Of a stretch of 46,435 bases of DNA, positions 1-15,793 are shown one piece after another. The position numbers and the translations under genes are program-made. Where the stretch lies: positions 1 to 46,435 of the forward strand of contig JAJDXM010000004.1 in NCBI GenBank assembly GCA_022823225.1, in the 5' to 3' direction. Under the pieces are notes generated by a model that saw only the letters and a list, made by a program, of their open reading frames with translations, was not told the origin of the DNA and did no database searches. This DNA comes from Gemmatimonadota bacterium (GTDB lineage: Bacteria; Gemmatimonadota; Gemmatimonadetes; Longimicrobiales; Gaopeijiaceae). Positions within the stretch are counted from its first letter, which is position 1. Each line of letters opens with the position of its first letter.

Positions 1-170
1 TCCAGCACCCCTCCCCACCCGCTCGAGCCCTCCGCTCCGACACCACATCCGGGTGGACGAAATTCGTCGGAATGGGTGGACGACTTCCGTCGGAACGAGT
101 GGACGAAATGAATCGGAATCAGTGGACGACTTCCGTCGGAATGAGTGGACGAAATGCGTCGGAATCAGCA
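1..170. mobile_element. Terminal region of an IS21-like insertion element (partial)
   Basis: The first 170 bases end in a block of short tandem repeats and the sequence CGGAATCAGCA. Several IS21-family elements carry multiple repeats of this GTGGACGA...CGGAAT type near their ends and finish in ...CA, so I read this as the outer end of such an element, with its body to the left of the window. Just beyond position 170 the reading frame matches the interior of a large ATPase, consistent with insertion into that gene. The family assignment rests on recall of IS21-type ends; no transposase gene is visible here. Confidence 0.5.
51..165. repeat. Five tandem copies of a 23-bp repeat
   Basis: Five consecutive 23-bp units (51-73, 74-96, 97-119, 120-142, 143-165) share the frame GTGGACGA followed by a variable six or seven bases and then TCGGAA. 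Units 2 and 4 carry ACTTCCG in the middle and units 1, 3 and 5 carry AAATNNN, so the types alternate. There are no unique spacers, so it is not a CRISPR array. It looks like a transposase-binding array at an IS end. Confidence 0.85.
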
Positions 171-1762
171 AGGCCCAAGCACATCTCGATCAAATGATCA
201 TGGCAGCTTATGGGACCGGTTCGTGCCAGTGGGAGCTGTTGACCCCATCTGGTGGAATGGACCTGCGGGGCGGGCGCGGTAGCGCCGCCATTTCGAGCGC
301 GTGTGATCTCGTCTACAATTCCACGCCTTCGGTAGGTAACGAGATCCTCAACCGTACGGCCGTCACCTCACAGGGAGCCAAAGCGCGGCGTATCCTGCTC
401 GAAGCCATGATTGAGAGGGACGATGCTGAGCAACTGGGTCTCGACGGGTATGGGCCCGAAGTCGCCATGTACCGGGCTTTCCTTGCCAGGACTGGCCTCC
501 ACGCGTTCGATCGGAGGAAGTCCCATTGGACCTTTCGCCGGCCAACGGACGAGAACCTCCAAGAGGCGTGGGACTTGGTTGAGCATGAGTTCGACCGGGC
601 CACCCGGCAGCGGGTCAATCTCCGCGACATCTACGCCACCCTGCTGTCGCCGCCGGTTGGGATGAAACGCGGAGTCATCCCCGTCTTCGTGACAGTCGCA
701 CTACTCGTCCGGAGCGATGACATCGCCGTCTACGAGCACGGCACCTTCGTACCAATGCTCACGCCAGAGTTCTCGGAGCGGATGGTCCGGAATCCGGGAC
801 ATTTCGAGGTCAAGCACTTTGCCAACACAACCGGGGCTCGTCTGCAGGTGGTACAGGCAGTCAGCGAACGAATGGGTGTACGGTCGAGACTCGGTCGTGT
901 GCGGGTGGCAAATGTCCTGGCAGTCGTCGGTCAGCTAGTTGCTCGTGTGAGGCGCCTGGACACGTTCACGCGCAGGACAGAGTCCTTGGATGCCGCTACA
1001 ACCAGGGTCAGGGAGGCACTCTTTACCGCTGTGGAGCCCGACGAACTCCTGTTCCAGAGTCTTCCCGAGGCGCTCGGACTGCCCGCGGTTCCCGTGTCGG
1101 CCACGGAATATCCGGCGTCGCACACCTACGCTAGTAGACTCCTCACTGCAATGGACGAGCTCACAGGCTGCGCAGACGGATTGTTGGACCAGCTATTCCA
1201 GGATCTGATGGATGTCAGTGGCGAGACTTCGCGCCAATCGATCAGTGGCTTTGCCAGGTCGCTCGAAGACGAGGTCTTGGATCCTACGGTGCGAGCCTTC
1301 GTGCTCACACTCGCCAACGACACCGTGGATGCGGATGCGGATTGGATCTGCACGATCGCGACAGTTGTGGCTGGAAAAGCCCCATCTGAATGGAATGACG
1401 GTGATCGGGCCCATTTCCGGCACTTGCTGGCTCGCCGTGTGGACTCGTTCCTGCGGCTCGTCGCACTCCACACGGACCAGCGTGCGGATGGTGGAGGTCC
1501 GTTCAAGCCCTTCCGCGTGACGGTCACTCGGCCGGACGGTCGGGAGCACGTCGCGCTGGTCGGCGTCGATGATGAGGATCAGCATTTGGTCAGCGACGTC
1601 CTTGACACGGCCCTAGATGAGTTGGTACCTACAATGGGTTCCCAGAAGAGAGCCATCTCGGCGCTGATCGCGATGATCGGTGACCGAGTCCTCCCTGACG
1701 AGAACGCCGACGACGACACGACCGAGGTCCAATTCACCACTAAGACGGTTCGGAATGCCTGA
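53..1762 (+). CDS. BrxC/DUF6079-like large ATPase, apparently 5'-truncated
   Basis: The open frame starts at a GTG inside the IS-like repeats, so the first ~39 residues (53-169) are probably not native; an ATG at 194 is another possible restart. From about residue 60 the protein resembles the region downstream of the P-loop domain in BrxC/DUF6079-type ATPases: a segment on TP...NEILNR, then AKARRILLEAMIE, then LG..GYGPEVAMYRAFLARTGLHA. The rest (about 200-569) is helical and weakly conserved. No Walker A motif is present; such family members are usually over 1000 residues, so the N-terminal ATPase part is missing. Its stop overlaps the next start by 8 nt, making it the first surviving gene of an operon running to 9927. 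The remnant is unlikely to act as an ATPase, but may still serve in translation coupling. The family call is from remembered motifs. Confidence 0.6.
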   Translation: MDEIRRNGWTTSVGTSGRNESESVDDFRRNEWTKCVGISKAQAHLDQMIMAAYGTGSCQWELLTPSGGMDLRGGRGSAAISSACDLVYNSTPSVGNEILNRTAVTSQGAKARRILLEAMIERDDAEQLGLDGYGPEVAMYRAFLARTGLHAFDRRKSHWTFRRPTDENLQEAWDLVEHEFDRATRQRVNLRDIYATLLSPPVGMKRGVIPVFVTVALLVRSDDIAVYEHGTFVPMLTPEFSERMVRNPGHFEVKHFANTTGARLQVVQAVSERMGVRSRLGRVRVANVLAVVGQLVARVRRLDTFTRRTESLDAATTRVREALFTAVEPDELLFQSLPEALGLPAVPVSATEYPASHTYASRLLTAMDELTGCADGLLDQLFQDLMDVSGETSRQSISGFARSLEDEVLDPTVRAFVLTLANDTVDADADWICTIATVVAGKAPSEWNDGDRAHFRHLLARRVDSFLRLVALHTDQRADGGGPFKPFRVTVTRPDGREHVALVGVDDEDQHLVSDVLDTALDELVPTMGSQKRAISALIAMIGDRVLPDENADDDTTEVQFTTKTVRNA

Positions 1763-2606
1763 CCCCATCCGGCACATCTGCGGCATCTCTGGAGGGAAGG
1801 ACTCCAGTGCCCTCGCCGTGTACCTCAGAGAGCCCCTGCCAGAGATGGAGTATTTTTTCTGCGACACAGGCGCCGAACTTCCCGAGACCTACGAGTACCT
1901 CACCCGGCTTCAAGTCATTCTCGGCAAGCCGATCACGCGTCTCAACGCGACCCGCGGCTTCGACCACTGGTTCGAGGTCTTCCGAGGGACCCTGCCGTCC
2001 CCGCAGATGCGGTGGTGCACGAAGAACATGAAGATTAAGCCGATCGAGGAGTGGATCGGCGACGCCCCGGCGATCTCTTATGTCGCCATCCGGGCCGACG
2101 AATCGAACCGCAAGGGATACATCTCCACCAAGTCGAACATCCAATCCCGGTTCCCGTTCATTGAAGACGGCATCGACCGCGAAGGGGTCATGCGGATCCT
2201 AGAGGACGCGGGAATCGGACTTCCGAAATACTACGAATGGAGAACACGATCAGGTTGCTATTTCTGCTTCTATCAGCGCAAAGCGGAGTGGATCGGCCTC
2301 GCCGAACGGCATCCCGAGCTGTTCGAGCGAGCAGTGGCGATCGAGCAAAAGGTGCTCCGGGACGCCGGCGTAGGCGGTGACGCCGACTTCAAGGATCGCG
2401 CGATGCGAGGGCGGCAGTACACGTGGTCTGGGGGTGAGACGCTCGTTGAGCTCCGGTCTCGGAAGGGTGAGATCCTGACTCGTCACCATGCAGCCCTAGT
2501 AGGTAGGGCAGCCACCAAACGAAAAAACGTACCCCTGATGGACGTGTTGGGAGACGCCCTAGACGAGGAAGATGACACTGTCCCCTGCACCGTGTGTGCC
2601 CTGTGA
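1755..2606 (+). CDS. PAPS reductase-family PP-loop protein, DndC-like
   Basis: A 283-aa PP-loop ATP pyrophosphatase. The signature SGGKDS is at residues 12-17, followed by the acidic FFCDTGAELPET segment (34-45) and MRWCTKNMK (85-93). Cysteines at 36, 88, 168 and 171 (GCYFC) and a C-terminal CTVC (278-281) could hold an Fe-S cluster. DndC and SspD, of the same superfamily, activate sulfur for DNA phosphorothioation, and BrxP occurs in type 4 BREX. I chose the ATG at 1755 because it places the N-terminus just before the PP-loop strand and overlaps the previous stop by 8 nt. A DndD-like ATPase lies downstream in the same operon. Sulfation-type metabolism is possible but unlikely in this context. 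No IscS-type cysteine desulfurase is visible in the window. Confidence 0.85.
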   Translation: MPDPIRHICGISGGKDSSALAVYLREPLPEMEYFFCDTGAELPETYEYLTRLQVILGKPITRLNATRGFDHWFEVFRGTLPSPQMRWCTKNMKIKPIEEWIGDAPAISYVAIRADESNRKGYISTKSNIQSRFPFIEDGIDREGVMRILEDAGIGLPKYYEWRTRSGCYFCFYQRKAEWIGLAERHPELFERAVAIEQKVLRDAGVGGDADFKDRAMRGRQYTWSGGETLVELRSRKGEILTRHHAALVGRAATKRKNVPLMDVLGDALDEEDDTVPCTVCAL

Positions 2607-4735
2607 GCACGTCGCCAAGCGAAGGCAGTGCCCCCCCGCATATACCCAGCGGTGCGCCATGGGGCAGTCCTCCCACTCCCCTACTACCGCGCTGGTATCA
2701 TCACAACCTCCCCAACGTGCGGCTCTCCTCTAAGATCCGGGCCGAGAATCCGACCGTCACCACGATAGGCCACCTCAAGGCGTTCTGGAACGACAGGTCC
2801 TCACCTATCGGTGATCCAGCACGAAGATCATTGCTTTACATCGCAAATACCTATCCGCCGCCCCCGCTCCTCGTTGTTATACCTCCCGAGATTGGTCCCA
2901 CTGACATCTTGGACTGGCCACTTTCTGTCCGTACAGCGAATTCGCTCCTGAGGAATGGCGTGCTCAAAGGCTCGAGCCCCGTCTGTGTAGAAGACTTGCT
3001 GGCCATCTCCGGCTTCGGCATGGCTTCGCTCTTGGAGCTGATGTGCGTGGCTGAAGCAACGGTACCGGTTCAACAGCAGACTCCGGCTCCCTTCACGGCC
3101 ACGGAGACTTCGAGCGCTGATCCCGACGGTAGTTACGAACGCAAAGATTGGCGCGAAGTCGCCGATTCGCTAGAATTGCTCTTCGCGGCAGCAAACGAGT
3201 TTTATGGGGCGATCACGGTTTCCGACGCTTTGGAACTCGACCTGACGGAGCTGGCTTTGGATCTCGGGTTGGGTGATGAGGTCGAGTCCTACAAGATCCA
3301 AGACCTAACCGATATTCGTATCCTGACCACGGTAGTTGATTCGATCCGTGACTTGCGGACTAAAATGTCGGAGCGCGAACTCACAATACTCGAGGAATAC
3401 CTGTTCGCACAAACACGTACGACACTCGAAAAGCTGGGAGTGAGGTTCGGGGTCTCGCGGGAACGGATCCGACAGATCAAGACCCGTATCGCTGACAACG
3501 TCGAAAGATGCGTGGGCCCTGAGGTCGACACTATTGCGGCTACGCTCCGCCGCAGGGCCGGCCCCGTAGTGGCTGAAAGCGATCTTCGCATGGCCGTGGA
3601 CAGGCTGTTCGAAGGAGAACCCCTTCGTGATCCGGCAGTGGGGCTCACCTGCAGAATTGTCGAAGCGGCACTGGGTTATGACTGCGTAAATGGCATATGT
3701 GCTATTGGCGACGCTAGAGAGACGCTGGATGGGCTTCGGAAGCGCGCAGTGGAGCTTGCTGATGACGTTGGGCTCATCGACGAGGAGGCTCTCCGCGAGT
3801 CCCTTCCTGATGCGGATTGGCACCGACTCTTTGAACTCTTGATCGAACGAAGTGGGGTCGTGCGCATCGGCCATCGATTAGCACTACGCTCCACCAAGAA
3901 AGCCCGCGCAAAGGCGGCGATCCTCAGTATCGGGCGTCCCGCCACACTTGACGAGATCGTGACGGAGTCGGGCCTTCCGCGGGCTAACTTGGGCGGACTG
4001 TTGTCGAGCATCCCTGGAATTGCTCGGGCGAGTAAGACCAAGTGGGGCATCGAGGACTGGATCGAAGACGAATACGAGGGGATTGTCGCTGAAATCGAGC
4101 AGCGGATCGAAGAGGACGGGGGCGCCACCACCTTGGACCGGTTGGTTAGTGAGTTGCCAGAGATGTTCGAAGTAAAGGAGAGCAGCGTACGTGCTCTCGT
4201 TGCGACCCGGCAATTCGTGTTGCGTGACGGAATCGTGCGCTTGGCGCAGGAATCGGAGGTGACGCTGAGGGACGTTTATGAGGTCGTTGATGGCGTGACT
4301 GCCGAGGGATGGCCGTATTGGAGCTTCAGGGTTCATGAGCGATACTTGAAGGGCTATAGTCTTGCCGGCGTCCCACCCGAGATTGCGGACGCGCTTGGGT
4401 GTCCAAGGAATGACAGCATTCGGGCAGCCGTGTCTCGTCCCTCTGGTTGTGGCCGGATTTCAGTCAATTGGCACTTGAGGTCTCTGTCGGGTGCGAGCGT
4501 GGGCTACATCTCGACACCTCTTAGCCGCCTGGGCGTCGCCGAAGGTGATCGAGTAAGCTTGGTCGTGGTCGAACCTGGCGTCGTCGAGTTCCGGTTGTTC
4601 GATTTGGAGCAACGCGGCGGACTTCCCAAGCGACGAGGGCGAAGGAGTGATCGAGCGGGCACGACGGTGACTGCAGGCAACCCTGGATCGTCCGCCCTGC
4701 TGGAGCGGCTGAAGCGTCGGCGGCAGGTGCTGTGA
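2603..4735 (+). CDS. Chimeric alpha-CTD-like / sigma-70 region 4-like DNA-binding protein
   Basis: A 710-aa protein with an unusual build. Residues ~103-153 (LDWPLSVRTANSLL...GFGMASLLEL) look like the helix-hairpin-helix fold of the RNA polymerase alpha-subunit C-terminal domain. Residues ~256-303 (ERELTILEEYLF...LGVRFGVSRERIRQIKTRI) match a sigma-70 region 4 helix-turn-helix. Further winged-helix-like segments follow (~435-535), then a possible beta-rich end. There is no sigma region 2, so it should not act as a sigma factor; binding DNA for a defence or modification complex is more likely. The GTG at 2603 overlaps the previous stop as GTGA; a GTG at 2594 is the alternative. The next gene starts in the same GTGA manner. 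Similar sigma-like HTH proteins occur in defence loci, but I cannot assign a role. Confidence 0.65.
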   Translation: MSTSPSEGSAPPHIPSGAPWGSPPTPLLPRWYHHNLPNVRLSSKIRAENPTVTTIGHLKAFWNDRSSPIGDPARRSLLYIANTYPPPPLLVVIPPEIGPTDILDWPLSVRTANSLLRNGVLKGSSPVCVEDLLAISGFGMASLLELMCVAEATVPVQQQTPAPFTATETSSADPDGSYERKDWREVADSLELLFAAANEFYGAITVSDALELDLTELALDLGLGDEVESYKIQDLTDIRILTTVVDSIRDLRTKMSERELTILEEYLFAQTRTTLEKLGVRFGVSRERIRQIKTRIADNVERCVGPEVDTIAATLRRRAGPVVAESDLRMAVDRLFEGEPLRDPAVGLTCRIVEAALGYDCVNGICAIGDARETLDGLRKRAVELADDVGLIDEEALRESLPDADWHRLFELLIERSGVVRIGHRLALRSTKKARAKAAILSIGRPATLDEIVTESGLPRANLGGLLSSIPGIARASKTKWGIEDWIEDEYEGIVAEIEQRIEEDGGATTLDRLVSELPEMFEVKESSVRALVATRQFVLRDGIVRLAQESEVTLRDVYEVVDGVTAEGWPYWSFRVHERYLKGYSLAGVPPEIADALGCPRNDSIRAAVSRPSGCGRISVNWHLRSLSGASVGYISTPLSRLGVAEGDRVSLVVVEPGVVEFRLFDLEQRGGLPKRRGRRSDRAGTTVTAGNPGSSALLERLKRRRQVL

Positions 4736-5625
4736 CGGTGTTCACACGAAACACCGTGATTCCAGGGTTGTATCGGCTCCCTGAGGACCCCGTTGGCCCG
4801 AGAGTCCTCATTCCTGGGTTTGCGTCGGCGACATCAGTTAGAGGAGCATTCGGTTGGTTCTCGGCCGGCTGGATCGCGCGGGTTGCTCCGGGCTTGGCGG
4901 AGTACATTGCTCGGCGCGGTACATCTCCGATCGAGTTCACGGTGGCGCCGGTTTTGTTTCCGGCGGAGCGCGAGGCCGTAGAGCGGGCAGTGTCCTTGAA
5001 TTCGGATGAGGCGAGCCGCAGGGTTGTCGATTTGTTCCACGACGGCAGGGTGAATGCGTCCGCGCTCGCCCAACATGCTTTGGATTGCCTTGCTTGGATG
5101 ATTGCCACGGGGACACTACGCCTACGCATCGCAGTGCCCACGGCCGAGTCAAACTATCATCCCAAGGTTTGGCTTTTCGATGATGGAACCGACCAGGTGC
5201 TTGCCCGAGGATCGGGCAACGCTACAGCGCGCGGAATCACCAGCGGCGTAGAACACTTCGATGTTGACGTGACTTGGATTGAACACAGTCGGCAGCGCGT
5301 CCGTGACGGTATTGCGATGCTTGATGACTGGTCTCAAGGAAAGAGCCACGGCATCGAGCGGGTTGTCGACTTACCTCAAGCCCTAAAGGAAGACATCATC
5401 CAGACTGCTCCAGAAGATCCACCTAGTCCGGCCGATTACGTCCAAGCGGCAACGGCGGACGCCGATCCCGGATGGGCGGCGGACGCAGCAGCACGACTGA
5501 CCGCTCGATTCAGCCGAAAGGTGACGCAAGCGCCCACGCTTGGCAATCCCCGATGGCATCGCGTGGGAGGAAGGCCCGTACAGCCATCAAGGCGAGGCCG
5601 TCGAGGCCTGGGAGTCCGAACCTAG
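4732..5625 (+). CDS. Phospholipase D-like nuclease domain protein (probably the N-terminal part of a split PLD-helicase)
   Basis: A 297-aa frame with one PLD/HKD motif: His143-x-Lys145 in NYHPKVWLF, then GSGNAT at ~160-165, as in single-motif PLD nucleases that act as dimers. The GTG at 4732 overlaps the previous stop (GTGA). Residues up to about 269 look native; the last ~28 (GNPRWHRVGGRPVQPSRRG...) are basic and low-complexity, and the next frame carries a normal helicase start there. A one-base shift near 5539 would join the two into one protein of about 740 aa, the usual layout of PLD-DEAD/DEAH restriction-type helicases. The real state may be a broken gene, a programmed shift, a sequencing error, or two overlapping genes. 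Confidence 0.75.
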   Translation: MTVFTRNTVIPGLYRLPEDPVGPRVLIPGFASATSVRGAFGWFSAGWIARVAPGLAEYIARRGTSPIEFTVAPVLFPAEREAVERAVSLNSDEASRRVVDLFHDGRVNASALAQHALDCLAWMIATGTLRLRIAVPTAESNYHPKVWLFDDGTDQVLARGSGNATARGITSGVEHFDVDVTWIEHSRQRVRDGIAMLDDWSQGKSHGIERVVDLPQALKEDIIQTAPEDPPSPADYVQAATADADPGWAADAAARLTARFSRKVTQAPTLGNPRWHRVGGRPVQPSRRGRRGLGVRT

Positions 5626-6979
5626 CCCTGAACGCGGCACCATCTCGATGGCCACCGGCGCCGGAAAAACCATCACCGCCTTGATATGCGCTACTCGCGT
5701 CCAAAACCGTCTTCAGGGGCAGCCTCTTCTTGTGGTCATCTCGGCACCATCGGTCCCGCTGATTCAGCAATGGCGCGGTGAGGTACGAAAGTTCGGCGTC
5801 CAAGCCGTCGTGCCGACTCTTGAGGCCAATACGAACATGGCGCTCACGAACCTCTTCCGCAGATTGCGTGGCGGTGGCACCCATGTCGTGATTGTCACCA
5901 ACCATCTCGTCTCGTCCCCTACTTTCCAGGCAACGGTAGCACAGACGACCCACTCGATAGACACCCTCTTCATCGGCGATGAGGTGCACACATTGGGTGC
6001 CGCAAAGTTCGTGGCGAACAAACCGGAGGCATTTGCCCGCCGACTCGGTCTTTCAGCTACACCGGAACGCCAATACGATCCTGACGGTACGGAGGAGATC
6101 TTCGCCTACTTCGGCGATCCAGTCTACGAGTTCGGCCTAGACCGCGCGATCGGTTTCTGCCTCACTCCGTACAATTACTACGTCCACGCCGCTACCTTGG
6201 ACGACGACGAAGTAGAGCGGTTCGAGCGCCTCAGTCAGCGGATCGGAGTGGCCATGGCTAGAGAAGCGAACGAACAGGGTGACCAGGACCCAGACTTGCT
6301 CAAGCGCTTGAGGATTCAACGACGCAGGATCATCGAGACGGCTCGAACCAAGATCTCGCTGCTGCGCAAGGTCCTTGACGAGCGTAATCCGCGTTCGTTG
6401 GACGGTGCCCTTATTTACGCAACCGCCAAGGATCCCCGGCAGTTTGACAGCATAAGCTCGCTTCTAAACAGCCTCGATATACGATGGGCTCCTGTAACTC
6501 AGGAAACGACGGCAAGACCCAACCTGCTCGCAACCCGTCTAGCTGCCTTTTCCGATGGCGGTTACCAAGTGCTGTTGGCCAAGAAGGTCCTCGACGAGGG
6601 TGTGGACATTCCGCGAATTCGGGAAGCCTTCATCGTTGCTTCGTCCACGGTCGAGCGAGAATGGATACAGCGCAGAGGCCGGGTGCTCCGCCGCCACCGC
6701 GATAAACCGTATGCGCTCATCCACGATTTTCTTGCGCTGCCGCCGGCACAACTTATTGCCCACGATACTACCAACGTCAAGAAGATTGTTCGCACCGAAT
6801 TCAACCGGGCTTACACGTTCGCGAAACATGCACGCAATGCGACCGGCGAGAAAACGGTGTTCGCTGATTTGGAGCGGATTAGAACGGCATACCAGCCCGA
6901 TAGCAGAACGTCGTCACTCCTTCAACGTGGCGGCGATTTCTATATCTCACCCAGTACTCCGAGAGGCTCCAAATGGTAA
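5540..6979 (+). CDS. SF2 DEAD/DEAH-box helicase (restriction/defence type)
   Basis: A superfamily 2 helicase of 479 aa. Visible motifs: Q-like YSHQGEAVEAW (~14-24), Walker A MATGAGKT (~37-44), DEVH box (~145-148), SATPER (motif III, ~172), and QRRGRVLRR (motif VI, ~377). This set is typical of HsdR- and DISARM-like defence helicases that move along DNA. The frame opens only at TTG 5540, with an in-frame TGA at 5522, and its first residues (AIPDGIA) look internal to a protein, so it is probably the C-terminal part of a PLD-helicase fusion with the preceding frame. Its stop overlaps the start of the next gene by 7 nt. Confidence 0.85.
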   Translation: MAIPDGIAWEEGPYSHQGEAVEAWESEPSPERGTISMATGAGKTITALICATRVQNRLQGQPLLVVISAPSVPLIQQWRGEVRKFGVQAVVPTLEANTNMALTNLFRRLRGGGTHVVIVTNHLVSSPTFQATVAQTTHSIDTLFIGDEVHTLGAAKFVANKPEAFARRLGLSATPERQYDPDGTEEIFAYFGDPVYEFGLDRAIGFCLTPYNYYVHAATLDDDEVERFERLSQRIGVAMAREANEQGDQDPDLLKRLRIQRRRIIETARTKISLLRKVLDERNPRSLDGALIYATAKDPRQFDSISSLLNSLDIRWAPVTQETTARPNLLATRLAAFSDGGYQVLLAKKVLDEGVDIPRIREAFIVASSTVEREWIQRRGRVLRRHRDKPYALIHDFLALPPAQLIAHDTTNVKKIVRTEFNRAYTFAKHARNATGEKTVFADLERIRTAYQPDSRTSSLLQRGGDFYISPSTPRGSKW

Positions 6980-7200
6980 GCAACTACGATCGAATATACA
7001 AAGAAATCCAGATCGAAGCCCGACGAGTCGGCGAAGATTTGGATATCGATCCTGAGGCCCTCGCGAGGCTAGCTCTGGAGATCGTGGATCTGGAGGACCG
7101 GCATCGTATCTCACACGTACACGCCATCAACAAGAAGGTCCGAGCTCTGATCGAAACCACAGCGGTTGCGCAGAGAGAGGAGGATTCAGACCGTGATTAG
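6973..7200 (+). CDS. Small helical protein of unknown function
   Basis: A 75-aa, charged, mostly helical protein with no recognised domain. Its ATG overlaps the helicase stop by 7 nt and its stop overlaps the GTG of the next gene by 8 nt, so it is embedded in the operon and very likely translated. The 5' part (YDRIYKEIQIEARRVGEDLDIDPEALARLALEI) could form two or three helices. Given its position between helicase and SMC-like ATPase, an adaptor between the two is a reasonable guess. It has no resemblance to DndE that I can see. Confidence 0.7.
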   Translation: MVSNYDRIYKEIQIEARRVGEDLDIDPEALARLALEIVDLEDRHRISHVHAINKKVRALIETTAVAQREEDSDRD

Positions 7201-9439
7201 AGTGCGTCGGATCGACATCCGTAACTTCGTATGTTTCGACCACATCGTTGTCGAGCCCTCGGTCGATCCAGAGAAGCGGCTTACGGTCATCAGGGCCGAG
7301 AACGGCTCCGGAAAGACCACGTTCCTCCGGGCGATTCGGTGGGGGATGTACGGGGAGAAGGGACTCCCCGGTGCAGACACGAGAACGTTTTCGATCCATC
7401 CGGCGGACTGGCGACCCGACCAAGAGGGGGTCCTCACACAGGTGGAGATCGAGTTTGAGACCGATGGATCGACTCGAGTTCATGGTGGGGGCGGCGGTGC
7501 CACCACGGTATACAATCTCAAGAGGCGGGTAACGACCATTCGGAGTCCCGCCGAGCGCGATGACCTGCCGGATTACCGACGGGTACACGAGACGGAAACA
7601 CTCATGAAGAGGGGACCGGACGGAGATTGGGCGCCAGTACCCCACCCGAGGAGGGTGATTGAAGAACTGCTTCCCTGGGATCTCCGGGACTTCTTTGTGA
7701 TGGACGCCGACGAAGCAGCGGACTTCGTCGGCGGCAGCGAGAACAAGGCAATAGCGCGTCGAGATGTGATCGCGAAGACTACGAAGGCTGTTCAGAGCCT
7801 GCTAGGGATCGATGTATTCACGGATGCCGCAGAGCGCGTGGCAGACCGTGAGCGCGAGTTCGGCGCGGAAGCAACGAAGGCTATCGGAGACAGTGACCTC
7901 GACGCCCTTCAGCAGGAGCTGGAGGAACACAGACGGCAGGAGAAGAGCTTGGAGCGAGACTTGGCCGACCAGCGTCGACAACGGCGCGAGTTGGCTGACG
8001 GATTACGGAGAGCGCTGGACAATCTTGAAACTGAAGTAAAGGGCGTGGGTGCTGCCGAGCAGCTCTCGGAACGTCTCCAGCAGACACGACAGCGAAGAAA
8101 GCAAACCGCCGTGAGGTACGGAAGGACCATGCTACGCCTCAGTGGCCAGCTGGAGTCGACTAAACTATTGGCCACCTTATCGGGCCGACTGGTGACGAAA
8201 GCTCATAGAGTGTTGAAGCCTCTGCACGATTCTGGCGCGATTCCCCTGAGGCATCTACAGTTCGTTCGGGCCCTATTGGAAGAGGGTGTCTGCGTATGCG
8301 GCCAGCAACTGTCGACCACCGGTGTCCATCGGCAGCATCTTGAGGACCGGGTCACCAAGACTGCTGATCAGGAGCGTCGCGCGGAGTTCCTTGAGAGACT
8401 GTATGACTCGGCACATGCTTTGGTGCGCACGGGCCAAGCTGCGGAATGGCTTAACCAAACGGAACAGCTCGGCCAAGACGCCGTGTCGCTCAGTGACGAG
8501 TTGTCAGAATTGGCGCGAGAGCAGAGCGAAATCGAAGCGGCCTTTAAACTGATCGATCAGGACAGAATACAGATGTTGCGCGATGAGATCGCCGCCCTCG
8601 AGACTCAGCTGAATACAGTTAAACGCAGGATTGCTGATAATGAAACAACGTTGCCGCCAGTTGCGCAACACATCCGATCTCTAAAGAAGCGCATTAGTCA
8701 GCGGACCACAAAGGCCCGAGTCGCACGCGACAAGAGGGCTTCCGAAAAGCTGGCGGGTGTCGTCACAACCATTCTCACGCGCGCCTATAGGACCATAGAA
8801 AGCGAGCAGGTCGATGAGCTGTCCCAGCGCATGAATTTACTGTTCGGGCAAATGGCGGCTAACGTTTCGGATGAGGACGTGCCAAACGCGGAGGCCAATA
8901 AAGCGACCCTCCGTATGATCGCGGAAGTCGGTGTGCGGTCGGTGAACGACGCTGAAGGGGAATACGAGATCTTTGCATTCAACGGGCGAGGTCGTCTGAT
9001 GCCGCCCATAGAGATAAACGGTGCCTCAAGAAGAGTGCTTGCGTTGTCCTTCGTGTTAGCACTGTGCAGGGAATCCCGCACATACGCCCCGCTCATCGCG
9101 GACTCTCTGCTCAATTTCATGTCCGGGGCAGTGCGGAGAAACACGCTACTCGTTACCTCCGAGAACTCCAGTCAGCCTATACTCCTTCTGACGGGTTCCG
9201 ACATCGAGGGGCAACACGAGGCGGCTATATCGAGCCGCTACGGTGGGGCAACCTATACGCTGACTGGTCAGTGGGACGCCGTGCGGGAAGGTGGTGGAGG
9301 AGATGTGGTGAATCAAATGGTTAGAAGGCAAGTAGCGGTCGTATGTGAATGCGGCCCTAGGGAGTTCTGCGATGTCTGCGAGCGACTTGGACAACGTGAG
9401 TCGCCCGGTTGGAGTCGGCGTACCAATGGAGATGGCTGA
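7193..9439 (+). CDS. DndD-like SMC/Rad50-type ATPase
   Basis: A 748-aa ABC-type ATPase with a long central coiled coil. Walker A is AENGSGKTT (35-43), preceded by the typical RIDIRNFVCFDH start. Coiled coil spans ~215-600, with a CVCG (Cys367, Cys369) near the middle, like a zinc-hook remnant. A signature-like NGASRRVLALS is at ~609-619 and a Walker B region APLIADSLLNFM at ~632. Unlike ordinary DndD proteins, it ends in a Cys cluster (718, 720, 726, 729; CECG...CDVC) that could bind zinc. I chose GTG 7193 because AGGAGG sits nine bases upstream and the alternative TTG 7166 adds an odd charged leader. DndD supplies ATPase activity for phosphorothioation together with DndC; a DndC-like gene lies upstream in the same operon. 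Confidence 0.8.
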   Translation: MIRVRRIDIRNFVCFDHIVVEPSVDPEKRLTVIRAENGSGKTTFLRAIRWGMYGEKGLPGADTRTFSIHPADWRPDQEGVLTQVEIEFETDGSTRVHGGGGGATTVYNLKRRVTTIRSPAERDDLPDYRRVHETETLMKRGPDGDWAPVPHPRRVIEELLPWDLRDFFVMDADEAADFVGGSENKAIARRDVIAKTTKAVQSLLGIDVFTDAAERVADREREFGAEATKAIGDSDLDALQQELEEHRRQEKSLERDLADQRRQRRELADGLRRALDNLETEVKGVGAAEQLSERLQQTRQRRKQTAVRYGRTMLRLSGQLESTKLLATLSGRLVTKAHRVLKPLHDSGAIPLRHLQFVRALLEEGVCVCGQQLSTTGVHRQHLEDRVTKTADQERRAEFLERLYDSAHALVRTGQAAEWLNQTEQLGQDAVSLSDELSELAREQSEIEAAFKLIDQDRIQMLRDEIAALETQLNTVKRRIADNETTLPPVAQHIRSLKKRISQRTTKARVARDKRASEKLAGVVTTILTRAYRTIESEQVDELSQRMNLLFGQMAANVSDEDVPNAEANKATLRMIAEVGVRSVNDAEGEYEIFAFNGRGRLMPPIEINGASRRVLALSFVLALCRESRTYAPLIADSLLNFMSGAVRRNTLLVTSENSSQPILLLTGSDIEGQHEAAISSRYGGATYTLTGQWDAVREGGGGDVVNQMVRRQVAVVCECGPREFCDVCERLGQRESPGWSRRTNGDG

Positions 9440-9927
9440 TGAACTATTTCAAAGCGCTATTGACTAGTCGAGCACATTCTCTGTTTCTCCCTGCAAAATG
9501 GAAGGACGATATTCAACGCTACGTTCGTCAACACCAGCAGGGGGCTAGTAGCAATCCTGAGGCCGCGCCCTTTGGGCGACAACTGGATTTCTGGACGCTC
9601 GCGTTTGCGACGGCGGTTGCTCGGGGCATCGCTCCACTTAAGTCGCGCCCCAACCAGGGGGGTCACAAGTTCGTTGACACGCGGCAGGTCGAGATGTCTG
9701 ATGAGCTTTGCGAGTTGCTCGCGGTCGTGGCTCTTGGGACCCTAGGCCCCGATGATGACGGCGTTGAAGATCCCGCTCGGATCATTGAACTCGCCAACCA
9801 GTACGCAGCCGCGGGCTGCGAAGAACTACTCCTCCGGCTTCAAGACCCGGATTTGCGTCTAAGTACGCTTGACAAGGCAATCGTTTTCGCCAGAGAGTTG
9901 GCACTCCCCGAATCTGACACAGATTGA
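9439..9927 (+). CDS. Last gene of the DndCD-like operon, unknown function
   Basis: A 162-aa protein. ATG 9439 overlaps the previous stop by one base (TGATG) and has GGAG seven bases upstream, so it is the natural start. The middle part (QLDFWTLAFATAVARGIAPL...FVDTRQVEMSDELCELLAVVALG) suggests a small helical domain. DndE is the small helical protein that ends dnd operons, and this gene sits in the equivalent place, but the sequence does not clearly match it, so a shared role is a guess. No transcription terminator is evident after the stop. Confidence 0.65.
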   Translation: MNYFKALLTSRAHSLFLPAKWKDDIQRYVRQHQQGASSNPEAAPFGRQLDFWTLAFATAVARGIAPLKSRPNQGGHKFVDTRQVEMSDELCELLAVVALGTLGPDDDGVEDPARIIELANQYAAAGCEELLLRLQDPDLRLSTLDKAIVFARELALPESDTD

Positions 9928-10238
9928 AGTCGGGCGTGAAACATCACGGTCCATCCGCAAGCGGCGACGATTCAGAGGACGGGTATCTCGTTCGATGAGA
10001 TCCGTTTCGAGTGTCCGCACGTGACGGGATCGAGCGGTCCGACGACGACATGACAAGTGTACATTACATTCAGCCATGTTTACATTACATTCTGTCGTGA
10101 AGCACCGTCCCTTGTTGCCGACCCCTCCGCGACGAATTCGTGACGCGAACGCGGTTCCGAAGCCGGTAACCGACGACACCCGTGGGGTGTTGATCCATCT
10201 CCCTGCTCACCCTGTTATTGACAACCCAAACACCCAAC
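9928..10238. other. Intergenic region between the DndCD-like operon and mcrBC
   Basis: A 311-base gap without a convincing gene. It contains a pair of direct repeats near 10060-10092 and is relatively AT-rich there. The TTATTGACAACC at 10214-10225 could be part of a promoter, or TTG 10218 could be a start codon for McrB. Minus-strand frames here have no recognisable content. Confidence 0.5.
10060..10092. promoter_or_regulatory. Two direct repeats upstream of mcrBC, likely operator
   Basis: TACATTACATTC occurs at 10060-10071 and again at 10081-10092. The period is 21 bp, two turns of the DNA helix, so both copies face the same side. The copies lie about 150 bases before the mcrB start. A regulator could bind both. 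The partial similarity of TTTACAT to the palindromic elements at 13.2-18.3 kb may be chance. Confidence 0.45.
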
Positions 10239-11981
10239 ATGCCCCGATTCAAGTATCATGAGCAGATCCTAGCGGCCGCCGAGCACTGGAAGGACCGGTG
10301 TTTGCTTGGCGAACGATCCCTGTTCACCGACCGACCCCTGTGGACTCGCGCGAACTTCCAAGCGCTGCTACCGCTCTTCGCCGAGAATCTGGACGATCTC
10401 TACGACCGCCTGCTCGCGATCGGCTCTTCAGACGCCAAGTGTCTTTGGGCCGAAATGACCTGGCTGTACCACTTGATTGAGCGCCCGGGTTCCATGGGAC
10501 CCGGGGCCAAGCGACGCCGGATCGCCGAGGTTTGGCGGTCGTCAGGGCGAGACTTCCCAGAGGGCCATGAGCTCGTCGCGGATACAGTGCTCGGCGCGGG
10601 CATCCTCAACCCGGGTCGGGCCTATAGTAGGCATGCCTGGAGGGAATACCACTTCTTCACGGTCGCCATGCTGGAGTGGTTCTCGCTAGATCGGAGCAAG
10701 CGTGAAACACTACTTGGTGACGCATGGGAGTTCGCCTCATGGTTGGACGCCACCAGACTCGCCCCTAACCGCATGCTTAGACACGCGATCGTGTTTCTGT
10801 TCTTCCCAGACGAATTCGAACCGATCATCTCCAACAGAGGCAAGAGAAAGATCGTCAGCCGACTGCACCAAGGCGAGCGTGTCAGTCCCTCCGATGCGGT
10901 CGCCATCGACCGTGCGCTGCTCGTGATCCGTCAACGCCTCGAAAAGGAGTACCCCGGTGAAGAGCACCACTTCTACCTCCCCCCGTTCAAGGAGCTCTGG
11001 CAAACACCTGCGCGTCCCGAACCTCCGAAGAATGGCAAGACGGTGACCGAGCCGATCCCGGATCCCTACCAACCCGACCCCCCGACCACCTACCTCCCCA
11101 CTCACGCCCACCAAGACCTCTTCCTCCCCCCCACCCACTTCAACCGCCTCCTCACCTCCCTCAAGTCCCGCAAGAACCTCATCCTCCAAGGCCCCCCCGG
11201 CACCGGCAAGACCTTCATCGCCCGCCGCCTCGCATGGTGCCTCATCGGCCACGAGGACAACGACCCCATCGAGATGGTCCAGTTCCACCAGTCCTACGCC
11301 TACGAGGACTTCGTGCAGGGGTACCGCCCCACCGACGACGGCGGATTCGACCTCAAGCCCGGCGTCTTCCACCGCTTCTGCGAACGCGCGCGCGCCAACC
11401 TCGACACCCCCCACGTCTTCATCATCGACGAGATCAACCGCGGCAACCTGTCGCGCATCTTCGGCGAGCTGCTCATGCTGATTGAGGCCGACAAGCGTAG
11501 CGAGGACTACGCCGTCGCGCTGACTTATGCGGACCCCGCGGACGGCCGCTTCCACGTCCCCGAGAACGTCCACATTTTGGGCATGATGAACACCGCGGAC
11601 CGGTCGCTGGCGCTGGTCGACTACGCGCTCCGCCGGCGATTCGCCTTCGAGTCGCTGCAGCCAGCCTTCGGAACGGACTTCGGCCGGACGGCGTTCGAAA
11701 AGCACCTCACCGGCAAGGGCGCCGCCCCCTCCCTCGCCCGCCGCATCTCCGACCGCATCGGCAAGCTCAACGAGACGATCGCCAACGACAGCGAACTCGG
11801 CCCCGGTTTCCGGATCGGCCACAGCTACTTCGTCCCCCGCGACGACGACGAGGAGGAACCCTCCGACGCCTGGTACGCCCACATCGTCGAGACCCAGATC
11901 GCGCCGCTGCTTCGCGAGTACTGGTTCGACTCGCCGGAGGATGTCGACAACGAAGTGGCCAGGCTCACCGCCGACGCCTGA
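10239..11981 (+). CDS. mcrB: McrB-family AAA+ GTPase of a modification-dependent restriction system
   Basis: A 580-aa protein. The N-terminal ~270 residues form a putative target-recognition region; it is not the DUF3578 type that I would recognise. After a proline-rich linker (~265-290) comes the AAA+ domain: Walker A GPPGTGKTF (318-326), Walker B with VFIIDEINRGNLSRIFGE (~391-408), the family marker GMMNTADRSLALVDYALRRRFAF (~447-470). McrB uses GTP to translocate DNA, and McrC provides the nuclease. ATG 10239 fits a short N-terminus MPRFKYHEQ; TTG 10218 is the alternative. Base use changes abruptly at ~11040: the 5' part uses mixed codons while the AAA+ part is strongly C-ending, suggesting a mosaic gene. 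mcrC follows 12 nt downstream. Confidence 0.9.
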   Translation: MPRFKYHEQILAAAEHWKDRCLLGERSLFTDRPLWTRANFQALLPLFAENLDDLYDRLLAIGSSDAKCLWAEMTWLYHLIERPGSMGPGAKRRRIAEVWRSSGRDFPEGHELVADTVLGAGILNPGRAYSRHAWREYHFFTVAMLEWFSLDRSKRETLLGDAWEFASWLDATRLAPNRMLRHAIVFLFFPDEFEPIISNRGKRKIVSRLHQGERVSPSDAVAIDRALLVIRQRLEKEYPGEEHHFYLPPFKELWQTPARPEPPKNGKTVTEPIPDPYQPDPPTTYLPTHAHQDLFLPPTHFNRLLTSLKSRKNLILQGPPGTGKTFIARRLAWCLIGHEDNDPIEMVQFHQSYAYEDFVQGYRPTDDGGFDLKPGVFHRFCERARANLDTPHVFIIDEINRGNLSRIFGELLMLIEADKRSEDYAVALTYADPADGRFHVPENVHILGMMNTADRSLALVDYALRRRFAFESLQPAFGTDFGRTAFEKHLTGKGAAPSLARRISDRIGKLNETIANDSELGPGFRIGHSYFVPRDDDEEEPSDAWYAHIVETQIAPLLREYWFDSPEDVDNEVARLTADA

Positions 11982-11993
11982 CCCCGGCGACCC

Positions 11994-13145
11994 GTGAAGA
12001 ACATCCCGATCCTCAACGTCTACTACCTCCTCTGCTACGCCTGGGGACGGGTCCAGGAACGCGACACCGCGCGGCTGGCCACGCTCGGCGGCCTCTCGAC
12101 GGTGCAGGACCTGCTGGGCAAGGTGCTCGCGGGCGGCGTCAACCATCTCTTCCGGCGCGGGATCGACCGCGGGTACGTCGAACGGCGCGAAGACCTCGCC
12201 GGCATCCGCGGCAAGCTGGCGGTCAGCGAGACGGCGAAGCGTGCGCTCCGTGCGCGGGCCCGGGCCGCGTGCGACTTCGAGGAGCTGAGCGTGGACATCC
12301 TCCCGAACCGCATCCTGCGCTCGTCGCTGCACGGACTGCTCAGGCGGGGCGTCACCATGGACGGACGGGACGTCACGCTCGACCGCCGTGTCCGCGCCGA
12401 CGTGCGCTCCGCCTACCGAAGGCTCGACGGCATCTCGCGCACCCGCCTGCGGCGGAACACCTTCGGCCAGGTGCAGCTCGGCGGCAACCGTCGGCTCTAC
12501 CACTTCCTGCTCTCGGTGTGCAGGCTCCTTTACGAAAGCTCGCTGGTCGACGAGACCACCGGCCGCACCACCTTCCGCGACTTCCGGCGCGACGATGCGA
12601 CCATGTGGGCGCTCTTCGAGGAGTTCGTCACCGGATTCTACCTGCGCGAGCAGCGCGTGTACCGCGTGAATCCGGGCGGCCGCCGGATCCAATGGGCCGA
12701 CCCCGGTTGGGCGACCGACGCCGACCGCGCCCGGATCCCCGTCATGGACGCCGACGTGATCCTCGAATCGCCCGAACGGCGGATCATCCTGGACACGAAG
12801 TACTATCGCGACGCGCTGGCCGGCGGGAGGGAGCGCGGCGCCGGCATGGGCCCCGCTTCGGGCACCGGATCCAGCACCGGCGGCCGCTCCGCCTACGGCA
12901 CCGGCAAGCTGCACTCCGGCAATCTCTACCAGCTGCTCGCGTACCTGCGGAACCGTCAGGCCACTCGGCCGGACGGACCGGTCCACGAGGGGATTCTGCT
13001 GTATCCGCAGGTGGGCGATGAGGCGCTACGGGCCGACGTTCGGCTTGAAGGGTTTCGGATTCAGGCTCGGACGGTAAACCTTGGTCGGGACTGGCGGCTG
13101 ATTCATGAGGAGATGCTGGGGGTGGTGGGCGTGGGCGGGGGGTGA
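11994..13145 (+). CDS. mcrC: McrC-like PD-(D/E)xK nuclease subunit
   Basis: A 383-aa McrC-family (5-methylcytosine restriction) protein. The N-terminus IPILNVYYLLCYAWG is the standard start of the short McrC form. The nuclease core is near residues 251-272: MDADVILESPERRIILDTKYY, with the D...D/E-x-K pattern of PD-(D/E)xK enzymes. A Gly-rich insert (~277-300) follows and the conserved Q-LAYL region comes near 312. Starts at GTG 11994, 12 nt after mcrB, so they are co-transcribed. Cuts DNA carrying modified bases when driven by McrB. GC content and C-ending codons match the 3' half of mcrB and the chromosomal genes to the right. Confidence 0.9.
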   Translation: MKNIPILNVYYLLCYAWGRVQERDTARLATLGGLSTVQDLLGKVLAGGVNHLFRRGIDRGYVERREDLAGIRGKLAVSETAKRALRARARAACDFEELSVDILPNRILRSSLHGLLRRGVTMDGRDVTLDRRVRADVRSAYRRLDGISRTRLRRNTFGQVQLGGNRRLYHFLLSVCRLLYESSLVDETTGRTTFRDFRRDDATMWALFEEFVTGFYLREQRVYRVNPGGRRIQWADPGWATDADRARIPVMDADVILESPERRIILDTKYYRDALAGGRERGAGMGPASGTGSSTGGRSAYGTGKLHSGNLYQLLAYLRNRQATRPDGPVHEGILLYPQVGDEALRADVRLEGFRIQARTVNLGRDWRLIHEEMLGVVGVGGG

Positions 13146-13217: not shown

Positions 13218-13279
13218 CCGTGATCCGTAAGGGTTCTCACGGCATGTTGGTCAAGCGGAAGGGGACAAGCTCGAACTGG

Positions 13280-13316
13280 CCAGGGACCAGACACCGGTTA
13301 TCGCCTGGTCCGCTGG
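13280..13316. other. Imperfect hairpin in the leader of the Schlafen-like gene
   Basis: CCAGGGACCAG (13280-13290) can pair with CTGGTCCGCTGG (13305-13316), leaving one bulge and a 14-base loop. There is no U tract, so it is not an ordinary terminator. It lies 78 bases before the start codon of the next gene and might affect its expression. Confidence 0.35.
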
Positions 13317-13393
13317 CTCCCACTTCCCCGCTCTCGTTAGCTTTGCAGGACTGGCGTGGCTATCGGCAACCCCGCAAGGAGACGCGATTCTCG

Positions 13394-15793
13394 GTGAGCA
13401 ACCTCAGAATCAACCTCGACGACCTGCTCCACGCCCGCACCGTCGAGTCCGAGCGGATCGAGTTCAAGGCGACCTGGGACGAGAAGGTCACGGGTTACCA
13501 GGTCTTGAAGACGATCTGCGCCTTCGCGAACGACCTGAGGCGCCACGGCAGCGGGTACATCATCCTGGGCGTCGCCGAAAAGGACGGCCGCGCTGATCTC
13601 CCACCCAGGGGGTTGACCGCGGAGCAGATCGAGGGCGCGACCAGGTGGCTCAAGGGACAGAGCCGCAGGATTGAGCCGCGGTATGAGCCCGTCTTCTCCC
13701 CGGAAGAAAGGGACGGGCGACGCATTCTGGTCATCTGGGTTCCAGCCAGCGAGACTCCCCCACACCAGGCACCCGACGGCGACAAGGTCCCCAGGAAGTA
13801 CTGGGTGAGGATTGACCAGGAGACGGTGGACGCCCAGGCCCGTGACCTTCTTAAACAACTCGTTGACCAGTCCACCACGGTACCATGGGACTCCCGCGCC
13901 GCCCTGAACGCCACGGTTGACGATTTGAGCGAGACCCTGGTTCGCGAGCACCTGCGGGCCTGCGAGAGTGCCCTGCTCGACGAACCGGACGCCCGGACCA
14001 TCTACCGGAAGATGGACATGGTCCGGCGGGTCAATGACCACGAGGTGCCGCGGAACGTCGCGCTCCTCTTCTTCTCTCGCGATCCCACTCGATGGTTCCC
14101 CGGAGCGAAGATCGAGACCAGCATCCTGCGGGCCGGAGCCGGCGGTGACGCCATCGATGAAAAGGAGTTCGAGGGCGGGGTCGCGGAACAGGTCAGAGAC
14201 TGTCTCCATTACCTGCGACGAGAGGTAATGGAGTCGATGATAAGCAAGGTGCCCAACCAGCTCGAGGCAGAACACAGCGTCAACTATCCGGAGGACGCCC
14301 TCCGCGAGGTTCTTGTGAACGCGCTCTTCCACCGCGGCTACGCCGAGGACTCTCCCCATTCCACTCTGGTTCGCATCACGCCGGACCGTATCGACATCCG
14401 CAGCACTCCGGGACCGGTCCCAGGCATCGACCTCGACCAACTCCAACAGGGAGGCAGCCCGCGTCTGGTACCTCCCCGCAACCCAAGGGTCGGCGAGTTG
14501 TTCAAGGAGCTTGGGCTTGCGGAAAAAAGACTGACCGGCCTGGGCAAGGTTTACCAGGCCATGGAGCGCAACGGGTCACCCCCGCCCGAATTCCATTTCG
14601 ACGAAGGACGCACGTTCTTCCAGGCGACTCTGTTCGCCCATACGCGGAAGACAACGAGGGCAGCGATCCGTACGGCCGACGAACTTCGGGCTGTGGGGCG
14701 CGCCAGGGCGGCCGCCGACACGCTCGAATCCGCATGGCGTGCCAATCCCGGGTCGCGCCGACTTGCCGAAGAGCTGGTTGGCCAATGCGTGACATTAGGG
14801 GATCTGGATCGTGCCGCGCCCGTGATCGAAGCCGTGCTGGAACTGGACCCTGATTCCGAACGCCCGAGCGTCGTCGTGCAGTGGTTGGAGGCGCTCGTTG
14901 CCGACGGACAGCGGGAGCGCGCACACCGCTTTCTCCGCGAACAGGCATCGAAGCTGTCCCCGCGTGAAGCGGCCGGTGCCGCGATCGTGGCCAGACGACT
15001 CCGGGAACCCGGCACTGCCGCCACACTCTTCGACATCGCCGGCACCCTGATCCTGGACGACCCTCGTGCGCTGTTGGAGTGCGCCCAGAACAAGCTCTGG
15101 CTCGCCGGGCAAGCCCAACGCGGGGGCATCGCCGCCAGGAATCGGGACCTACTGCACGACGCACGCGTTCTGCTGGAGCGGTTGCTCCGCATGGATGCGC
15201 CCCGTCGCAGACTCGCCTGGGCCTGGCGGGAACTGGCACGGGCACGGCGATGGCTGGGCGAGCCGGCTTCAGCGGTGGACGAAGCATATGCGATGGCCAC
15301 CGAACTGGCTTGGGACGAAACAAGGTTCTGGACGGAGTGGGGGCGTTCCAGCGAGCGCGGTGCTGTGGCACAGTTGGTGTGGCAGCAGCCGAAGGTTCGC
15401 GAATTGTCGGTGCCCGAACACCTCTATGGCCCGGGGGTCCTGGGCGACGGAGAGTATGACAAGCAGAGCAAGACAGTAGAGGCCGTGGGTCGGGCAGTCG
15501 ATAAACTCGACACGATCCTCGCTTCCGCCATCAAGGCGCCCGACCATCGCACCCGGCGCATACAGAAGCACCTTGCCGACGCGCACACACGACTCCAGCG
15601 TTCCGGGCCCCTTCGGATTGCCACCGGCCTCGAGGTGGCAAGAGACCTGACTGGGATCATCGTGTCTTCGACGGATCACAAGGAAGGGCTGTCAGCGGAC
15701 GAGTCGACTTCGGCCATGTTCATGGAATTGACTCAAGCCCTGGCAGAGGTCAACGCACGGTTTCTGCGTTGGCTCGGGCCGCGTCGCACCTGA
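13394..15793 (+). CDS. Schlafen AlbA_2 / HATPase-domain ATP-binding protein with TPR-like C-terminal half
   Basis: A 799-aa protein. Residues ~10-140 form an AlbA_2 (Schlafen) domain: ESERIEFKATW, then CAFAND, then GYIILGVAE. Residues ~300-420 form a HATPase_c_4-type ATP-binding region (DALREVLVNALFHRGY; VGELFKELGLAEKR). The rest (~430-660) is repeated helical pairs resembling TPRs, with no match I can name beyond that. Such AlbA_2-HATPase proteins are usually called transcriptional regulators or putative nucleases and are common in defence islands. GTG 13394 is preferred: AAGGAG lies 12 bases upstream, and the upstream extension to 13220 reads as noncoding. It follows mcrBC but is separated by 248 bp containing element C, so it is probably its own unit. 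Confidence 0.75.
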   Translation: MSNLRINLDDLLHARTVESERIEFKATWDEKVTGYQVLKTICAFANDLRRHGSGYIILGVAEKDGRADLPPRGLTAEQIEGATRWLKGQSRRIEPRYEPVFSPEERDGRRILVIWVPASETPPHQAPDGDKVPRKYWVRIDQETVDAQARDLLKQLVDQSTTVPWDSRAALNATVDDLSETLVREHLRACESALLDEPDARTIYRKMDMVRRVNDHEVPRNVALLFFSRDPTRWFPGAKIETSILRAGAGGDAIDEKEFEGGVAEQVRDCLHYLRREVMESMISKVPNQLEAEHSVNYPEDALREVLVNALFHRGYAEDSPHSTLVRITPDRIDIRSTPGPVPGIDLDQLQQGGSPRLVPPRNPRVGELFKELGLAEKRLTGLGKVYQAMERNGSPPPEFHFDEGRTFFQATLFAHTRKTTRAAIRTADELRAVGRARAAADTLESAWRANPGSRRLAEELVGQCVTLGDLDRAAPVIEAVLELDPDSERPSVVVQWLEALVADGQRERAHRFLREQASKLSPREAAGAAIVARRLREPGTAATLFDIAGTLILDDPRALLECAQNKLWLAGQAQRGGIAARNRDLLHDARVLLERLLRMDAPRRRLAWAWRELARARRWLGEPASAVDEAYAMATELAWDETRFWTEWGRSSERGAVAQLVWQQPKVRELSVPEHLYGPGVLGDGEYDKQSKTVEAVGRAVDKLDTILASAIKAPDHRTRRIQKHLADAHTRLQRSGPLRIATGLEVARDLTGIIVSSTDHKEGLSADESTSAMFMELTQALAEVNARFLRWLGPRRT

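Follow-up and report, generated by a model that had tools for sequence, protein, structure and literature searches.

A compact operon at the start of the window, the 46,435-nucleotide stretch of Gemmatimonadota DNA analyzed here, very probably encodes a phosphorothioate (PT)-based restriction-modification system with the gene order sspABCD-SIG-pbeABCD; we infer its chemistry, its activity in defence, and what SIG does. SspABCD lays single-strand sulfur marks and has SspE or SspFGH as partners (PMC8092258, PMC11662687), and PbeABCD is a published PT-linked restriction module that accompanies DndCDEA in Haloterrigena/Natrinema (Xiong et al. 2019, PMC6459918). While each module is thus known on its own, their combination and the SIG protein seem not to have been described. 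Recent papers give only SspE and SspFGH as partners of Ssp; for Pbe, the PT partner they give is Dnd. No description of the Ssp–Pbe pairing or of SIG was found in the searchable open-access literature.

The window corresponds to contig C89 of a genome of 4.19 Mb in 97 contigs that is congeneric with G018, and window position 1 is the first base of that contig. A preliminary description of this DNA took positions 53–9927 for a single operon, which is borne out: the genes lie on the same strand, tightly packed, and six gene junctions within 171–9927 share overlaps of a few bases (sspC/sspD, sspD/SIG, SIG/pbeA, pbeA/pbeB, pbeB/pbeC, and pbeC/pbeD). Because sspA, sspB, and the 5′ half of sspC are found in operon order on contig C26, the reconstructed order is sspA-B-C-D–SIG–pbeA-B-C-D, split over C26 and C89 (Table 1). 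A dN/dS of 0.04–0.21 in every operon gene points to purifying selection and, together with a gene order that is kept in distant genomes, excludes chance clustering.

Table 1. Features of the window between positions 1 and 9927
Feature	Position	Strand	Basis and remarks
End of putative IS21-type element interrupting sspC	1–170		Five 23-bp repeats, terminal repeat CGTCGGAATCAGCA; tandem repeat finder
Target-site duplication AGGCC, 5 bp	171–175		Perfect copy also at the C26 side
sspC, 3′ part (SspC AAA+ ATPase, C-terminal half)	171–1762	+	PADLOC SspC, 1.6e-128
sspD, PP-loop (PAPS-reductase-like) sulfurtransferase	1755–2606	+	PADLOC SspD, 4.8e-107; motif SGGKDS, two CxxC pairs
SIG, 713 aa	2594–4735	+	N-terminal alphaCTD-like HhH domain, sigma-70 region 4 HTH (257–299), predicted winged-helix array
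pbeA, 5′ part, PLD/HKD nuclease domain (HPKVWLFD, GSGN)	4732–5531	+	PADLOC PbeA, 7.7e-33; frame lost at about 5531
pbeA frameshift	5531–5533	+	2 nt fewer than in G018 and G396, DNA alignment
pbeA, 3′ part, SF2 helicase domain (DEVH)	5533–6979	+	PADLOC PbeA, 9e-126
pbeB, 75 aa	6973–7200	+	Position and size; 52–80% identity among Ssp-SIG-Pbe loci
pbeC, ABC ATPase of the DndD/CxC clade	7193–9439	+	PADLOC PbeC, 1.2e-47; Walker A AENGSGKT
pbeD, 162 aa	9439–9927	+	Position; homologues in the same place in six other loci

Directly 3′ of the operon, positions 10218–13145 hold genes for an McrB-like AAA+ ATPase/GTPase (PRK11331, 4.6e-93, below cut-off) and McrC (PF10117, 1.8e-21), a type IV (modified-DNA) restriction pair. 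The neighboring 857-residue protein (13220–15793), with Schlafen AlbA_2 and RecG-C-like HATPase domains and TPR repeats, is likely a member of the same defence island.

The mark expected of an SspABCD module is a single-strand PT at 5′-CPSCA-3′. All four genes of the modification module are present in the genome in the required order, namely sspA (cysteine desulfurase), sspB (DUF4007), sspC (AAA+), and sspD (PP-loop), with sspC interrupted. The preliminary description had seen no Ssp genes and had taken the first reading frame for a BrxC/DUF6079-like remnant, neither of which stands. ORF 2–1762 is the C-terminal half of SspC, covering profile positions 618–1102 of 1104, and it matches the BrxC model at 3.1e-42 as against 1.6e-128 for SspC (PADLOC); SspC and BrxC are only distantly related. 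The N-terminal half, including Walker A, lies on C26 (locus L009; profile positions 2–621), where SspB (3.1e-100) and SspA (1e-124) also match in operon order (PADLOC), and in a search of the window's own genome the two SspC halves score 5.4e-176 and 4.6e-128. In G018, SspC is intact (1153 aa) and the ssp gene order is unbroken.

The PP-loop protein, first described as being of the DndC/SspD/BrxP kind, sides with SspD (4.8e-107, scored on ORF 1680–2606) and not with DndC (6e-07; PADLOC). A role in sulfate metabolism was considered for it and rejected, as the window protein scores as SspD; a separate strong PAPS-reductase match (1.3e-54) is found on contig C23 of the same genome. Among the operon ORFs scanned with PADLOC, there is no match to SspE, SspF, SspG, or SspH, nor to the DndE profile, and the operon does not hold the DndABCDE set.

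An insertion sequence interrupts sspC. The contig end at which the window starts falls within this IS21-type element, which is why sspC looks a remnant. The same element end begins contig C55 (98% identity), and the end of C26 carries the opposite element end (TGCCTATTCCGACG...), an inverted repeat to the CGTCGGAATCAGCA of the window end. The insertion lies at a codon boundary with its flanks in frame, and the adjoining residues, ERLAQA/QAHLDQ, agree with ERLAQAQMHLDR in the unbroken SspC of G018. The AGGCC target duplication makes an assembly effect very unlikely here. The IS21-type assignment is putative and follows from the end structure, the transposase being absent from the assembly pieces read. 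The pbeA frameshift, on the other hand, could in principle be an assembly effect. As sspC is split by the insertion sequence and pbeA is frameshifted, the operon copy in the window's genome is probably inactive.

The restriction module has the features expected of PbeABCD: (i) a PLD nuclease fused to an SF2 helicase (PbeA), (ii) a small protein (PbeB), (iii) an ABC ATPase with a CxC hook (PbeC), and (iv) a protein of about 150 residues (PbeD). pbeA is a single ORF in G018 (747 aa, PADLOC 5.6e-152) and G396 (749 aa), and what had been taken for a PLD-helicase pair is one pbeA gene that lost 2 nt near 5531 relative to these two intact relatives. The helicase ORF also matches TIGR04095 (dnd_restrict_1) at 4.7e-98, below the cut-off of that model. 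The ATPase, initially assigned to the DndD kind of SMC proteins, is indeed DndD-related, but it is better matched by PbeC (1.2e-47 versus 2.9e-20 for DndD; PADLOC) and carries the hook, CVC at residue 376 (numbered in the ORF from 7166), which is invariant in all eight PbeC sequences aligned. PbeB and PbeD, which had been listed as two unknown small proteins, find no profile match, and their assignment follows from where they lie and from homology between loci; their sizes and places are as expected and are conserved across loci. Rakesh et al. 2024 term PbeD a DndE cognate (PMC10853773). The catalytic motifs of both modules are kept, including Walker A of SspC, the PP-loop of SspD, HKD and DEVH of PbeA, and Walker A and CxC of PbeC.

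The operon shares with DndCDEA-PbeABCD the PLD-helicase PbeA, small PbeB, ABC ATPase PbeC, and PbeD of about 150–170 aa in the same order, adjoining a PT modification module; here, however, the modifier is SspABCD (AAA+ SspC, DUF4007 SspB), and a sigma-like protein sits between the modules. With SspABCD-SspE and SspABCD-SspFGH (PMC8092258), it shares sspABCD in the same order, whereas the restriction partner is PbeABCD. The CxC ABC-ATPase systems of Rakesh et al. 2024 (PMC10853773) resemble it in the CxC-hook PbeC, the HKD-SF2 nuclease-helicase, the small protein, and the DndE-cognate position. That paper pairs CxC systems with Dnd and methylase genes and presents Ssp as having SspC in place of the ABC ATPase; neither an Ssp-CxC operon nor a sigma-like partner was found in passages of its main text.

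The preliminary description also suggested a hybrid of sulfur-based DNA modification with BREX or DISARM restriction. Its first half is upheld by SspABCD, and its second gives way to PbeABCD as the actual partner. The SspC–BrxC relatedness speaks for such a hybrid. Type 4 BREX, itself PT-based (PMC12839542), has SspB-, SspC-, and SspD-like proteins. The operon proteins scanned differ from this type in having Pbe as the restriction part and neither PglZ nor BrxL. Among them, PADLOC finds no PglZ, BrxL, BrxX, or methylase model and no Drm model of the DISARM set (DrmA/B/C plus methylase), and the best matches all fall to Ssp or Pbe, which leaves a BREX or DISARM hybrid a very improbable reading.

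Intact copies of the operon occur in at least three phyla, represented by Gemmatimonadota, Latescibacterota, and Acidimicrobiaceae MAGs. The complete nine-gene, co-linear operon is present in G018 and in G396, which belongs to another genus, and contig C17 of G122 has the same gene order with a SIG that lacks the N-terminal part. When an alignment of SIG is scanned against 84,980 species genomes, only six loci emerge, in all of which SIG follows sspD; pbeA comes after SIG in the five with enough sequence, the contig of the other (L086) ending inside SIG. Most loci come from metagenome assemblies. They include an Acidimicrobiaceae MAG and a Latescibacteria MAG chromosome in which sspA is divergent and SIG reaches 904 aa through a duplicated N-terminal region. 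Locus L085 (JAPPHB010000015.1) is labelled Gammaproteobacteria (RHO1_bin_70), which disagrees with the placement of G396 in the window's own family. In G021 (L035/L089), the variant set sspCD-SIG-pbeA-pbeC has behind it a GIY-YIG-like gene and the gene for a protein of the DndB family (PF14072, 2.8e-28).

The pairing of Ssp with Pbe extends beyond the SIG-containing form, as two plasmids illustrate. The Sphingomonadaceae plasmid CP099618.1 carries the same eight genes, sspABCD-pbeABCD, without SIG, and in the Rhizobium indigoferae plasmid NZ_CP140639.1, sspABCD is convergent with a pbe set and SIG is absent. SIG is therefore not required for the pairing. In the window's phylum, six of eight strong PbeA loci adjoin ssp genes; in one of these six, on contig C62 of G122, a SIG-like gene lies in convergent orientation at the opposite end of the pbe set. 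Of the remaining two, one adjoins Dnd genes (G004) and the other a DNA methylase accompanied by another kind of sigma-region-4 protein (G186). At the latter locus (L091, G186:C96, 5162–12133), pbeA-pbeC-pbeD precede the genes of a sigma-region-4 protein of 439 aa and of an N6/N4 DNA methylase, as well as a RelE-like gene, and Pbe is apparently paired with methylation. A link between SIG and this sigma-region-4–methylase–Pbe arrangement was rejected beyond the HTH, the only part that profile comparison aligns. Two further loci (L078 in G017 and L079 in G001) have sspABCD followed by a ResIII-type helicase and an HATPase_c_3 protein in place of Pbe, another candidate restriction partner of Ssp; GIY-YIG-like and DndB-like (DGQHR) genes lie further along L078.

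In a rival reading, SspABCD would be a modification set without a partner of its own and SIG-PbeABCD a separate system, the two brought together by chance in a defence island. Consistent with this, Pbe also pairs with Dnd and methylases, and the module histories differ, as PbeC and SspD identities are uncorrelated (rho 0.11, p 0.29). Module swapping between modification and restriction is, however, known for this class, and in the tested archaeal case Pbe activity needs PT modification (PMC6459918). Reading frames overlap at the junctions, the gene order is the same in several phyla, and the alphaproteobacterial plasmid carries an independent co-linear Ssp-Pbe operon, all of which makes chance neighborhood improbable.

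SIG belongs to the Pbe (restriction) module. Across seven loci, a small sample whose members are not independent draws, the pairwise identity of SIG correlates with that of each of the four Pbe proteins (rho 0.68–0.93, Mantel p 0.0004–0.013) but with that of none of the four Ssp proteins (rho −0.02 to 0.26, p 0.21–0.42); simple linkage would also yield co-divergence of SIG with Pbe. The assignment draws on an independent case as well, the Arthrobacter plasmid NZ_AP024649.1, in which the gene of a SIG relative of 732 aa overlaps pbeA, pbeC and a gene the size of pbeD come next, and the opposite strand encodes DndC (5e-191), DndD (6e-224), and DndE (9e-15). On this arrangement, SIG–PbeABCD pairs with either Ssp or Dnd.

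The first reading of the middle protein as sigma/alpha-like and DNA-binding holds. Sigma region 4 is found in all full-length SIG copies scanned, and the G021 homologue matches RNA_pol_A_CTD at E = 9.4e-5, just below the family cut-off. Of regions 2 and 4, which sigma-70 factors combine, only region 4 was detected in SIG, and no further sigma-factor region was, so that SIG is unlikely to act as a sigma factor itself; one homologue alone has a weak region 3 match (E = 0.17). The AlphaFold model of SIG has low overall confidence (pLDDT 64, pTM 0.37) and is better at residues 21–157 and 245–550. Foldseek returns borderline tandem winged-helix matches to it, the best being a SelB C-terminal fragment (E = 2e-3), and a winged-helix array is likely on this model. 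Since these matches are borderline and PDB sequences match SIG at region 4 only, the fold claim stops at the winged-helix array, and SIG was rejected as a solved fold. A virus-borne origin was likewise rejected, no relatives being found among viral contigs or phage records.

A relative of about 500 aa, corresponding to residues 190–662 of SIG without the N-terminal domain, lies outside defence operons in essentially every genome of the window's genus and is missing from the family's other genera that were sampled. One such sigma-region-4/winged-helix protein is encoded at G000:C1:9247–10662 (locus L036, 9193–10689). SIG looks like a recruited, extended copy of this DNA-binding protein of the lineage, or the reverse. 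Another sigma-70-like protein, MzaA of the Mza defence system (NCBIfam NF041931), resembles SIG in having a sigma region 4 HTH within a defence operon, but the similarity is limited to about 50 HTH residues (E = 2.5e-4, far below cut-off). On Microbacterium chocolatum plasmids (L097, L098), SIG-like sigma-HTH proteins cluster with genes for a UvrD-helicase, a 3′-5′ exonuclease, and DUF4011, and this may be a further type of defence cluster that uses such proteins.

The families of the proteins suggest how the system would work. SspA would take sulfur from cysteine, SspD would activate and transfer it, and SspB with the SspC ATPase would select and process the DNA site, so that host DNA would bear a backbone sulfur mark as self. 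PbeC, the CxC-hook ABC ATPase, and PbeD would survey DNA, PbeB would regulate, and PbeA, through its PLD nuclease and SF2 helicase, would block invading DNA that lacks the mark. In the published archaeal system, PbeABCD depends on PT modification to block the replication of viruses, and cleavage of viral DNA was not seen (PMC6459918); the HKD-nuclease of PbeA, on the other hand, speaks for cleavage (PMC10853773). SIG would be a fifth part of this Pbe subtype, bearing RNA-polymerase-like DNA-contact domains (alphaCTD, sigma region 4, and winged helices).

The favored role for SIG, to which we give a little less than an even chance, is that of a subunit that reads DNA and either recruits the Pbe complex to it or reports its state. 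A transcriptional controller of the restriction genes is the second choice and nearly as likely. In its fuller form, this alternative holds SIG to be an operon regulator that guards against toxicity, like the C proteins of restriction-modification systems, and not part of the restriction machinery, its alphaCTD and region 4 binding a promoter and limiting or timing Pbe expression. The clearest domains of SIG are indeed transcription-type DNA-binding domains, its core homologue without the N-terminal domain lives outside defence operons throughout the genus, and SIG is dispensable in some Ssp-Pbe loci. SIG nevertheless sits between two modules and not first in the operon, its predicted winged-helix array exceeds the needs of a simple regulator, and it co-diverges closely with PbeA and PbeC, though linkage could give the same; we regard the regulator as a real possibility that falls well short of an even chance. 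Rather unlikely is a distinct type of PT defence with SIG as the target-recognition or licensing subunit, by which PbeABCD would serve single-strand (Ssp) or double-strand (Dnd) marks or target transcribed or promoter-like invading DNA.

Of 2,678 sspBCD loci, 2,211 have neither sspE nor sspFGH nearby, and other restriction partners have been queried (Wang et al., PMC8092258). For some of these partnerless loci, PbeABCD is a concrete answer. The Pbe module is exchanged between two unrelated sulfur-marking machines, with SIG as an added, uncharacterised DNA-binding component that belongs with Pbe. If the favored role is correct and SIG reads the DNA state, it would help to explain how PbeABCD tells marked from unmarked DNA without visible cleavage, a point that stands between PMC6459918 and PMC10853773.
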